Source: Erysipelothrix sp.
Lineage (GTDB): Bacteria; Bacillota_I; Bacilli_A; Erysipelotrichales; Erysipelotrichaceae
DNA length: 64,000 nucleotides
Direction: 5' to 3'
NCBI GenBank assembly: GCA_018335655.1
Contig: JAGXRX010000028.1
Span: 1 to 64,000 of the forward strand
Shown here one piece after another: positions 2,488 through 6,979 of the stretch (positions are counted from its first letter, which is position 1; each line of letters starts with the position of its first letter). A program made the translations under genes and the position numbers. The notes beneath the pieces were generated by a model, which was not told the DNA's origin, did not search any database, and worked only from the letters and a program-made list of their open reading frames with translations.

Positions 2488-3468
2488 ATGACCTGTAAAC
2501 ACTGTGGACAACCTATTGATTTAGATAAGGAACATCAATGCATTGTGAAAGAGAAATATAATCAAAAAACAATCTCTATCATCATGCCACCCGCACCACA
2601 TCGCTCTTCACCATCCCTAGATCAAAGTGTTTTATCTTTATCAGGAAATCATCCAGAACATATCACATTAGAACAAGTACTTGATTTTAAACAAGAAACT
2701 GAAGGCTTTATTAAAGAAGTTTTAAATGTTGTAAAGATTTGGAAGAAATTTGTTAAGAAGCCCACAAAACAAAACATTATTCTAATAATTTGTGGTGTTA
2801 TTGCTTTCATACTTTGGTTTTGGACAAAATATGCCCCAGGAGGATTTAATTACATGCCTCCAACAGGATTAAAAGCAGTATTTTCCTTTTTAACAGCGAG
2901 TTTCAATAATGTACCATCTCGTATCCTTCATTTCTCAGCTTTAGTTACACTTGTGAGTGCCTTTTTGCCTGCTATCTTAGGAGGGCAATATGAAAAAGTC
3001 ATTGCTAACGTGAATGGTGTTATCCAGCTGATTATTAAAGTTATCTCTTATAAGAAAAGCCAAGTCTTTTATACGCTCATTATTGCTGCTGGAGCAGGTT
3101 TATTCTTTTCTAACTATATGATGAGAAACAACTCTATTAACAAATACTTCGCTTGTTTTACTTTAGGAACTATGATTATGTTATCAACTTCAGGCCTTTT
3201 TAAGTCAACATTTGTAAGACTTATGAAAGGCCTTTTAAATGACATAACAAAACTATTAAAGATTAAGGATTTTTATACTAAGTATCAAATTGCAATTCAG
3301 TTAGGATTTGGTGGAGGATTAGTACTTTCCATTGTTAGTTCATTAATTCGAGATATAAGCAGTAGTGCTTTCACAGACAACCTTGGTTACTTTCTTGGAT
3401 TCATAGTCTTTGTCACTGGAATTACTTTAAGTTTTCAAAACCTTAAGTTAAAGAGAAAAGCAGTATGA
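2488..3468 (+). CDS. Zinc-ribbon-headed multi-pass membrane protein of the radical SAM cassette
   Basis: N-terminal MTCKHCGQPIDLDKEHQC (CxxC plus downstream Cys), then several hydrophobic segments; ATGA overlap with next gene. Confidence 0.65.
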   Translation: MTCKHCGQPIDLDKEHQCIVKEKYNQKTISIIMPPAPHRSSPSLDQSVLSLSGNHPEHITLEQVLDFKQETEGFIKEVLNVVKIWKKFVKKPTKQNIILIICGVIAFILWFWTKYAPGGFNYMPPTGLKAVFSFLTASFNNVPSRILHFSALVTLVSAFLPAILGGQYEKVIANVNGVIQLIIKVISYKKSQVFYTLIIAAGAGLFFSNYMMRNNSINKYFACFTLGTMIMLSTSGLFKSTFVRLMKGLLNDITKLLKIKDFYTKYQIAIQLGFGGGLVLSIVSSLIRDISSSAFTDNLGYFLGFIVFVTGITLSFQNLKLKRKAV

Positions 3469-4547
3469 TTCAACACCGCTTTGACTTTAAATATCGTTAT
3501 GTGACAACTTTTGATCCAAAGTCTGGAGAGTACTTTCGATCTAATGTGTTTGATAAAGATGGAAGTGATACTGGCAAAGAACCTTTTATGGGAGATTTTC
3601 CACACTTATTAGATATTGGCATTAAAGGCTTTTGTGAGCATGGCTTGTCAGGGAAATGTATGGAGGCAGGGACATATTGTTATCAATTAGGTGCAGAAGT
3701 TTCTTCAAAAGACATGTCATTAGAAGATTACACCCATATTATTAAACAATGTGAAAACAAGACTTTTCAAGTTGCATTAGGAGGACGAGGTGATCCAGAT
3801 TGTCATCCAGACTATGAAGCAATATTGAAAGTAACACGAAATCATAATATCGTTCCAAATATTACCACATCAGGATTTCTATTCACAAAAGAAAAAGCTC
3901 GCATTACAAAGCAATATTGTGGTGCAGCAGCAGTGAGTTGGTATAAAACTCCTTACACATATAAAGCTATTGATTATCTTCTTGAGGCTGGAGTTGTGAC
4001 TAACATCCACTTCATCCTTCATGAGAAAAGTATTGAAGAAGCGATTGATTTAATGCAACGAAATGCTTTTCCTCAAGGGATTAGAGCTGTTATCTTTTTG
4101 CTCTATAAACCTGTAGGTTACAATCGCACTGATTTAGTTCTAAAAAAAGATAATCCATATTTAAAGCAGTTCTTTGAACTCATGAATGCTGATAATCAAA
4201 CCTTTATGATGGGATTTGACTCATGTTTAGTGCCTGGTGTAGTCAATTACTGTAAAGATGTTGCACCACAATGTATAGAACCATGTGAAAGTGGTCGCTT
4301 CTCTGCATATATTAGTCCAGATAATAAAATGTATCCTTGTTCCTTTATTCAGTCACCACAATATGAATGTGACTTAAAACATTTAAGTATTCAACAAGTT
4401 TGGAATAGTTCTGTTTTTGAAACATTTAGAACACCTCAACGAATAGCCTGCCAAGCATGTTCAAAAAGAGAATTGTGCTTAGGAGGATGTCCTGAACTAA
4501 ACATAATCAACTTATGTCAAGATAAGAAAGAGGGGATCAGAGAATGA
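3465..4547 (+). CDS. Radical SAM/SPASM domain protein
   Basis: DIGIKGFCEHGLSGKCMEAGTYCYQLG cluster region, LGGRGDP, C-terminal SPASM-like Cys pattern GRFSAYISPDNKMYPCSF...C..CSKRELCLGGCP. Confidence 0.8.
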   Translation: MIQHRFDFKYRYVTTFDPKSGEYFRSNVFDKDGSDTGKEPFMGDFPHLLDIGIKGFCEHGLSGKCMEAGTYCYQLGAEVSSKDMSLEDYTHIIKQCENKTFQVALGGRGDPDCHPDYEAILKVTRNHNIVPNITTSGFLFTKEKARITKQYCGAAAVSWYKTPYTYKAIDYLLEAGVVTNIHFILHEKSIEEAIDLMQRNAFPQGIRAVIFLLYKPVGYNRTDLVLKKDNPYLKQFFELMNADNQTFMMGFDSCLVPGVVNYCKDVAPQCIEPCESGRFSAYISPDNKMYPCSFIQSPQYECDLKHLSIQQVWNSSVFETFRTPQRIACQACSKRELCLGGCPELNIINLCQDKKEGIRE

Positions 4548-6979
4548 AACAACGTCGAGGATTCGTCACTAACTCAAGTTCAACCAATGATATCTTTGTT
4601 GCGCTAGGAACAGCTGGTGCCGCTGCAGCACTAGGAACTGTGATTAACACTATTCAAGTGTCTAAGAATACTGAGATAGTTTCCTATGCCATCTTAGACA
4701 CACTTCATCAACCTGAAGAGCCACGACCTCCTGAGATTAGAGTCAATGATTCTGAATATGTCGCATGGTTTTACTCAGGAGTGAGAATCATTGATGTTCA
4801 ATATGCTTTTGATGAAGAAAGTCAAGAAACTCAAATTACTGTGTTAAGAGATGAGTATGATAGTAGTTATACTTCACAGATTAAATATAGTATCCCAGAA
4901 GCTTATATCGAAAAATGGCTCACCTTTGCAACATCAGGAGAGGATATTGCAACGATGAGTGGAGATTATAAGGTGTGTGGATTTATGTGTGAGTCTTGGG
5001 AAAATGATAAACCACGAAGTCAACGCCAAGGGATTGCTGGAAAAATGAGTTTTGATGTGAGTGTTGATGTAGCAGGGAAACCACTGTATAAAGGAAAACA
5101 AGTTAATATTAAAAATGAATCAGACTTATATGCTAGTGATGGGTATGCCCTTAATGATGCGAATATCACAACAACTATTCCAATAAGGTTGATTAATCCT
5201 GATAAGTATAAGTGGAAACTTAGTTATGAAGTTTCAAAGAGTGATTTAGAAAAATATGCTCATGTTGAACTTAGACATAATAAAGATGAATCAAAACCTA
5301 GTGTTTTAATCTATGATTTAATCATCAAACCTCATGGAAATCCGCTAGGAAGTAAGGAGAATCCTCTAAATAGTATAATTGCTAGACTTGATATTAAAGG
5401 TGAACCAAGTAGTAATCATATAAGTGACGTTTGGGATTATCTAGAACTAACGCTTATCGATGAAGGAATACTTTTCGAAGGCAAAATGGATGAAGAATCA
5501 CGCTTAGAAGTAGTATCTTACTGTGAAGAATCATCTGAAAGCACAGAACCTTCTAAAGAAATTCCAGCAACTCCATTCACACTAAAATGTGTTATTAAGG
5601 TTGAATCTGAAGATGAATCAAGTACCGCACAATTTGTGGACATGAGCGAAGCAGAAATTTCCTTTAAACCACTTATTGGATCTGATGATGCAACTGATAA
5701 TCTTGTGAAAGCTTATGAATATGAGATTAAGTTTGATGGGCATGCAGGAAATTATCGCTTTGAGCCTAAGATGCAACTTCCAACAAGTAAAACTCCTTAT
5801 GTGGTTAAACTACCAGTAGAATGTAACGTCAAAAACAAAACATATCATTTAGATTTACCAATTCAACTCATTGGAGAACCTTATGGTAGTAAACAGGCTT
5901 GGGAAGATGAGTATCGCAACTTACGTATCATTATTAGAAAATACATTCCAGCAGAACAATGGAGTGATATTTTAAGAAATATTGAAGATAATAAAAACCG
6001 CTTAAGTATAGAACAACTTCGTCTCATGCGACGTAGTATTTATGAGACCGCACGTGATCAAATCACTGCCCAGGCTCAAGGCTATCAATCGATTGCTAAT
6101 ATATGTGAGTGGACAGAATGGGGACTAGAAGGCGTTAAATGGTTAGGTGATCAAGCATTTTCATATCTTATGGCAGTATACACAGGACCAGTTGGAGAAG
6201 CATTTATTGTGCCATTTAAAGATGTTTTAACAATGGTTGTCGCAGATGAAGTTACTGGATATATTTGGGGTGGTGCAGGAGCATACAGTGAAGATCAAAT
6301 TGCAAGAGGATCTTTATCCGCTATTTTCACATCCTTTGAGAATGCAATTAACATCGGTGCTGATGATATGGTGGGTGCACAAAGTCTAAGTATCAAGCAA
6401 CTAGGTCGCTATCTTGCAGCATTCGCAACCATAAAGTGTTTAAATCATTATTTCAATGACGTTAAAGATGATGGAAGCCCAATAGGATTTTGGGATGCCA
6501 TTGTGGAAACATGTAAAGACCTCAGTATCAACTTCTTTAAAAATATCGTGGCTAAGAAGTTTGAAGCGATGATGAAATCAGATAAGGCTGGTGAATTATT
6601 TGAAAAGTATGTCTCTAAGCAATTTAAAGAACAATTATTAAAAGTGATACCAGATTGGGATAAGGTAGGAATATCTGATCCTCGTAGTCTAGAAATCTTG
6701 GGTAAATATCTTTCAGAGTTCGCAGGATTTGTGTCATGTTCTGCTTATGGTAAAACAGTGAGCGTTGCCTCAACCAACGAGATTATAAGTGATCATAATG
6801 AAACCATCATTTCGTTTAATTTAAGTAGTGATGCGAATAATCCATGGATTGTCAAAATCAGCTTAACTAAGATTAAAGATTCCCTTTCAGACTATATCTT
6901 TAATTCTATGTTCTCTAGTTTTCCATTCTCATCATCTCCAATTAGTCCAAGTGATGATCCTACCTTCTACAAAGCCTAA
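4544..6979 (+). CDS. Large uncharacterised protein with N-terminal RRGFVTNSSST motif; putative radical SAM substrate
   Basis: 811-aa ORF with 4-nt ATGA overlap to the radical SAM gene; MKQRRGFVTNSSSTNDIFVALGTAGAAAALGTVINTI N-terminus. Confidence 0.7.
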   Translation: MKQRRGFVTNSSSTNDIFVALGTAGAAAALGTVINTIQVSKNTEIVSYAILDTLHQPEEPRPPEIRVNDSEYVAWFYSGVRIIDVQYAFDEESQETQITVLRDEYDSSYTSQIKYSIPEAYIEKWLTFATSGEDIATMSGDYKVCGFMCESWENDKPRSQRQGIAGKMSFDVSVDVAGKPLYKGKQVNIKNESDLYASDGYALNDANITTTIPIRLINPDKYKWKLSYEVSKSDLEKYAHVELRHNKDESKPSVLIYDLIIKPHGNPLGSKENPLNSIIARLDIKGEPSSNHISDVWDYLELTLIDEGILFEGKMDEESRLEVVSYCEESSESTEPSKEIPATPFTLKCVIKVESEDESSTAQFVDMSEAEISFKPLIGSDDATDNLVKAYEYEIKFDGHAGNYRFEPKMQLPTSKTPYVVKLPVECNVKNKTYHLDLPIQLIGEPYGSKQAWEDEYRNLRIIIRKYIPAEQWSDILRNIEDNKNRLSIEQLRLMRRSIYETARDQITAQAQGYQSIANICEWTEWGLEGVKWLGDQAFSYLMAVYTGPVGEAFIVPFKDVLTMVVADEVTGYIWGGAGAYSEDQIARGSLSAIFTSFENAINIGADDMVGAQSLSIKQLGRYLAAFATIKCLNHYFNDVKDDGSPIGFWDAIVETCKDLSINFFKNIVAKKFEAMMKSDKAGELFEKYVSKQFKEQLLKVIPDWDKVGISDPRSLEILGKYLSEFAGFVSCSAYGKTVSVASTNEIISDHNETIISFNLSSDANNPWIVKISLTKIKDSLSDYIFNSMFSSFPFSSSPISPSDDPTFYKA

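Follow-up and report, generated by a model that had tools for sequence, protein, structure and literature searches.

Radical-SAM/SPASM enzymes encoded next to the genes of their substrates are found in the triceptide systems (XncB, OscB and MscB), in which three-residue cyclophanes are formed from an aromatic residue or His and a Ser, Thr or Asn two places further on, and in which the substrates are short precursor peptides. MscB crosslinks Phe to Ser between residues i and i+2, a known SPASM reaction, and Tyr and His can stand in for Phe in its enzyme class (PMC11002830). The RiPP and PQQ maturases SuiB, SkfB, CteB and PqqE also act on peptides, sactionine- and ranthionine-type chemistries need Cys, and the SPASM enzyme anSME modifies Ser or Cys of a protein at a motif internal to sulfatases. 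A precedent of another kind is PEP-CTERM/exosortase-type sorting, in which a short terminal tag is carried by many unrelated proteins and served by one dedicated enzyme; there the tag is C-terminal, the enzyme is protease-like and the outcome is membrane targeting.

The locus described here resembles these systems in (i) a radical-SAM/SPASM gene adjacent to the gene of its putative substrate, (ii) the fold and SPASM domain of the encoded enzyme, (iii) an aromatic residue or His followed two places on by Ser or Thr and (iv) a short terminal tag shared by many unrelated proteins. It differs from them in that the tag is N-terminal, sits on whole proteins (any crosslink within it being hypothetical), has a core devoid of Cys, lies outside sulfatases and is paired with a radical-SAM enzyme. 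No description of such a system was found in the open-licence papers searched. In its chemistry it belongs to a known kind (radical-SAM/SPASM); in its architecture, an N-terminal tag that is portable among many whole proteins is new to our knowledge.

The Erysipelothrix locus

The window (the whole analysed stretch of 64,000 nucleotides of contig JAGXRX010000028.1 from Erysipelothrix sp.) carries three genes on its forward strand that are chained by 4-base ATGA overlaps. These encode a 326-aa membrane protein that begins with a zinc-ribbon-like CxxC segment (2488..3468), a 360-aa radical-SAM/SPASM enzyme directly downstream (3465..4547), which is proposed to act on the tag, and an 811-aa tagged protein (4544..6979, with its ATG at 4544) starting MKQRRGFVTNSSSTNDIFVALGTAGAAAALGTVI. 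Positions 4544-4588 had been singled out earlier as a possible modification or recognition motif, and they encode exactly MKQRRGFVTNSSSTN, the N-terminus of the 811-aa ORF. The noted tag is thus real, and positions 4544-4591 (MKQRRGFVTNSSST) represent a divergent copy of a motif with a fixed N-terminal position: the 16-residue form of the window, MKQRRGFVTNSSSTND (4544..4591, forward strand), follows the consensus MKIRxDFVTNSSSSSF and diverges at residues 15-16. A hydrophobic segment (residues 16-34; 4589..4645) abuts it. This stretch, which the earlier note had described together with the tag, is shared by most members of the window protein's family and is not a component of the tag elsewhere.

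No Pfam or NCBIfam family above cut-off was found for the 811-aa protein. Its body family comprises about 20 members from Bacillota and Chloroflexota, its structure model has a mean pLDDT of 37, too low for use, and the family profile gave only weak matches, mostly to helical-repeat structures, when compared with the PDB. The 326-aa membrane protein matched no Pfam family; its homologues immediately precede the enzyme in 21 loci, namely those bearing the body family of the window. Membrane protein, enzyme and window-type tagged body constitute a conserved three-gene unit of Bacillota and Chloroflexota, and the 811-aa protein probably acts together with its upstream membrane protein.

The enzyme belongs to the phage family phrog_7293 (PHROG 7293), of unknown function. 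It matches the SPASM family PF13186 (28.7 bits, with a cut-off of 21.5), lies just below the Radical_SAM cut-off and reached no NCBIfam equivalog cut-off. The folds closest to its structure model (pLDDT 93.9), which was made with two plasmid rows left out, are those of SuiB (Z 26.4 over 317 residues), SkfB, PqqE, anSME (Z about 21), CteB and ChlB, all of which modify proteins or peptides. The three Cys residues of the radical-SAM cluster, C57-X7-C65-X6-C72 (3633..3680), are present in 25 of 25 rows of the enzyme alignment, and the family-wide invariant Cys residues are these three ligands plus C254, C274, C292 and C342. The spacing is non-canonical: CX7CX6C occurs in most enzymes of the window clade (78 sequences), whereas sister clades have the canonical CX3CX2C or a longer first loop. 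Unlike in the RiPP and PQQ maturases, the segment ahead of the barrel (about 45 residues) is short for a full leader-binding domain.

Sequence of the tag and diversity of the tagged proteins

In total, 281 distinct tagged proteins were collected with a score of 11 out of 16 positions, no residue other than M1 being forced, and these gave the consensus MKIRx[D/G]FV[T/S]NSSSSSF. N10 is present in 280 of them, and neither S11 nor S12 is replaced in any of the 281. Only F, Y or H occurs at residue 7, as expected for the aromatic residue or His of a triceptide maturase substrate, and residue 9 is S or T in 277 (the remainder being A, N and one G), in agreement with the i+2 beta-carbon expected of a triceptide. 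Phe stands exactly at residue 7 in 191/200 tags of viral loci, and Asp is found at residue 6 in 94 of the 102 tags of cellular origin. Both classes of Ser codon are used at each Ser position of the tag (at S11, 156 TCN and 125 AGY), and therefore Ser itself appears to be under selection. A conserved Cys of the kind that serves as donor in sactipeptides and ranthipeptides is absent from the tag among the 281 proteins, Cys being rare at residues 13-15. The tagged whole proteins are of about 65-880 aa, mostly 80-880 aa, and are thus not the short precursor peptides of triceptide maturases.

A match to at least 12 of the 16 tag positions was found at 331 start codons of the collected sequences, whereas the tag in reversed form or in 20 permuted forms matched at 0-2; the loci had partly been selected for the tag, and so more weight is given to unbiased tests. 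The initial loose pattern matched mostly sequences other than N-terminal tags, and a scan of viral contigs with a single protein gave no matches. The G-F-V-S-N-S-S-S pattern written with AGY codons found 45 stretches in viral contigs and its reversed form none, the motif scans of viral contigs yielded 57 stretches beyond those chosen by the enzyme, and the 35-base pattern read backwards, as a control, had zero matches in 196 + 295 + 20 whole genomes. GFVSNSSSSSF-like starts, which the earlier note had mentioned for Firmicutes and phage proteins, do occur in both.

With the tag removed, the 281 proteins fall into 82 unrelated clusters, 54 of them singletons, and in an alignment of 86 body representatives only the tag columns are conserved. 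Few of these representatives are recognisable (BRCT, BspA-type LRR and weak zinc ribbons), 31 of the 86 match phrog_7397, a family of unknown function, and none matched the sulfatase families that are the partners of anSME. Viral contigs picked by the enzyme alone carry beside it one to four tagged, otherwise dissimilar proteins, and on plasmids of Agrobacterium and Rhodobacter the enzyme's relatives have as their neighbour a protein of some 131 aa that begins MK[LI]KMDFVSNSSSTSF. BspA-type leucine-rich repeat bodies are tagged in loci L118, L121, L128 and L151, and L096 and L125 have LRR proteins without the tag in the neighbourhood. In large phages and one Clostridiales genome (L046, L059, L036, L060 and L169), tagged and mostly unrelated small proteins form arrays of as many as about 10 members.

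Pairing and co-variation of tag and enzyme

A profile search with the enzyme in 84,980 species genomes revealed 230 relatives, of which the best 80 (from Bacillota, Chloroflexota, Actinomycetota and single proteobacterial and Bacteroidales genomes) were kept. An intact tag was found in the same stretch, generally in the next gene, for 76 of these best 80. In the other four, the tag is interrupted by a stop codon (L157), the contig ends about 40 bases past the enzyme (L104 and L159) or a tag is missing (L112); most of the 80 genomes are metagenome-assembled and such single exceptions should not be over-read. The interruption in L157 (9097-9150) is an in-frame TAA at S11, perhaps reflecting a pseudogene or an assembly error. 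The nearest tag lies on the strand of the enzyme in 121 of 124 cases.

The association was also recovered from the side of the tag. The order to which Acetatifactor muris belongs was represented by 196 genomes, and independent searches of these with the tag pattern and the enzyme profile gave the identical five, neither being found in the others. Calculated by hand, such a coincidence has a probability of 1 in C(196,5), about 4e-10; leaving out the centre genome, which had been chosen for its enzyme, raises this to about 2e-8. For tags found blindly in other genomes, the enzyme is adjacent in L183 and L186, and no enzyme was found near the 51-aa tagged protein of L182. A second tag locus (L188) lies about 18 kb from the enzyme of its genome. 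Among the 46 viral records matched by the motif, many of which are fragments, the enzyme is present in 27; several of the others lack a tag in frame, and the remainder are mostly short fragments.

The types of tag and enzyme vary together. In a quick tree of the enzymes, (i) G6/S9 tags correspond to one clade (21 rows, support 100), (ii) alphaproteobacterial D6/S9 tags to a separate clade (support 98) and (iii) T9 tags to clades that include the enzyme of the window. Five body clusters span more than one enzyme type, and in each of them, albeit with few switched cases, residue 9 follows the enzyme (S9 with the phage and alphaproteobacterial types, T9 with the window type and its neighbours); residue 6 mostly switches with the enzyme clade too inside shared body families. 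Since the body remains constant and the tag changes with the enzyme, this pattern is predicted by a direct reading of the tag by the enzyme and not by co-inheritance alone. The neighbouring radical-SAM/SPASM enzyme is the partner of the tag, in a near-obligate pairing. The enrichment near radical-SAM genes that had been suggested earlier thus holds in both directions, and variants of the tag track the enzyme clade.

Proposed role, alternatives and biological context

We consider it likely that the tag acts as both the recognition and the modification site of this dedicated enzyme. The enzyme would bind, in trans, the first approximately 16 residues of any protein bearing the tag and would modify residues within the core F/Y/H7-V8-S/T9-N10-S11-S12, and many unrelated proteins would thereby receive one identical change. 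As to its nature, one guess, to which we give a fairly low probability, is a triceptide-like three-residue crosslink from the ring of residue 7 to residue 9; it fits the residues chosen at these two positions, and the Phe-Ser crosslink of MscB provides a precedent. Oxidation of Ser or another change at N10-S11-S12 is an alternative guess that fits the sequences, and this might be the site instead of residues 7 and 9 because these are the most invariant residues. The earlier proposal of Ser/Thr side-chain chemistry next to a radical-SAM enzyme is borne out as regards the link between tag and enzyme; such chemistry is possible, with residues 7 and 9 an equally plausible site.

Known RiPP enzymes recognise an N-terminal leader and modify residues downstream, and the fold relatives of the enzyme include RiPP enzymes, so the tag could be a leader-like docking sequence only, with the enzyme altering the body of each protein. 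This seems unlikely given the 82 unrelated body clusters without a conserved column outside the tag in 86 representatives, and core residues that are constrained beyond the usual needs of docking alone. Somewhat less likely still is a signal for localisation, export or virion packaging, the enzyme being merely co-inherited or having another target. The fixed N-terminal position, the basic start, the hydrophobic stretch after the tag in the window family and the arrays of tagged proteins in large phages are in line with such a signal, but the tag also occurs in non-viral genomes, where each enzyme has a single tagged gene, its type tracks the enzyme clade inside body families, and in most phage bodies it is not followed by a long hydrophobic stretch. 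A class III signal of the type IV prepilin kind (MKxRxGF resembling MKxxxGF) has a very low probability: the window copy does have the basic start and GF, but Asp occupies residue 6 in most cellular tags and residue 7 is followed by VTNSSS and not by a hydrophobic TLIE-type stretch, so that both the Gly before Phe and the hydrophobic stretch with Glu5 are wanting and this reading is contradicted. Ser runs are common, but an origin of the tag by chance or low complexity is refuted by the near-zero reversed and permuted controls, the association and the co-variation, and its probability is negligible.

If recognition and modification by the dedicated enzyme are confirmed, the tag would be one that can be transferred between proteins and is served by a radical enzyme of its own, with a distribution that covers at least five bacterial phyla as well as many large phages, and at least 82 uncharacterised protein clusters would gain a common feature. 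Radical-SAM maturation would be widened beyond short peptides to include a tag that whole proteins carry, and the system might provide a genetically encoded modification site. We give an even chance to the broader idea of a general, portable modification code, by which the same change would give unrelated proteins a property in common during phage infection and in the conflict systems of bacteria.

The tag system is testable in a standard laboratory with the Escherichia coli phages RB16 and RB43. These and Klebsiella phage KP15 each encode two proteins starting MKIRSGFVSNSSSSSF (in RB16, RB16p106 of 155 aa and RB16p111 of 170 aa, with the enzyme RB16p156), and in all three the enzyme is encoded about 20 kb from the tagged proteins. 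Among 50,697 phage records, the enzyme was found in 172 and the two tagged bodies in 174 and 175, with a near-identical host spread; these records are mostly of one viral lineage and thus reflect retention and not independent events.

In alphaproteobacteria and A. muris, a four-gene cassette was observed that consists of genes for an Avs2-like NACHT NTPase, a small protein, the tagged protein and the radical-SAM enzyme (L003:4550-9002 and L181:6988-11832, also L002, L026, L027 and L029). The NTPases of L003 and L181 match the PADLOC Avs2 model over part of its length (1.5e-21 and 9.3e-16, respectively), which places them among Avs2-related NACHT/STAND proteins. This setting suggests a role in conflict or defence there, and the cassettes are candidates for an undescribed defence system. 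The N-terminal domain of the NTPase is swapped between alphaproteobacteria and A. muris, one having a SMEK domain and the other a trypsin-like one, and the tagged body of the cassettes is related to tagged phage proteins.
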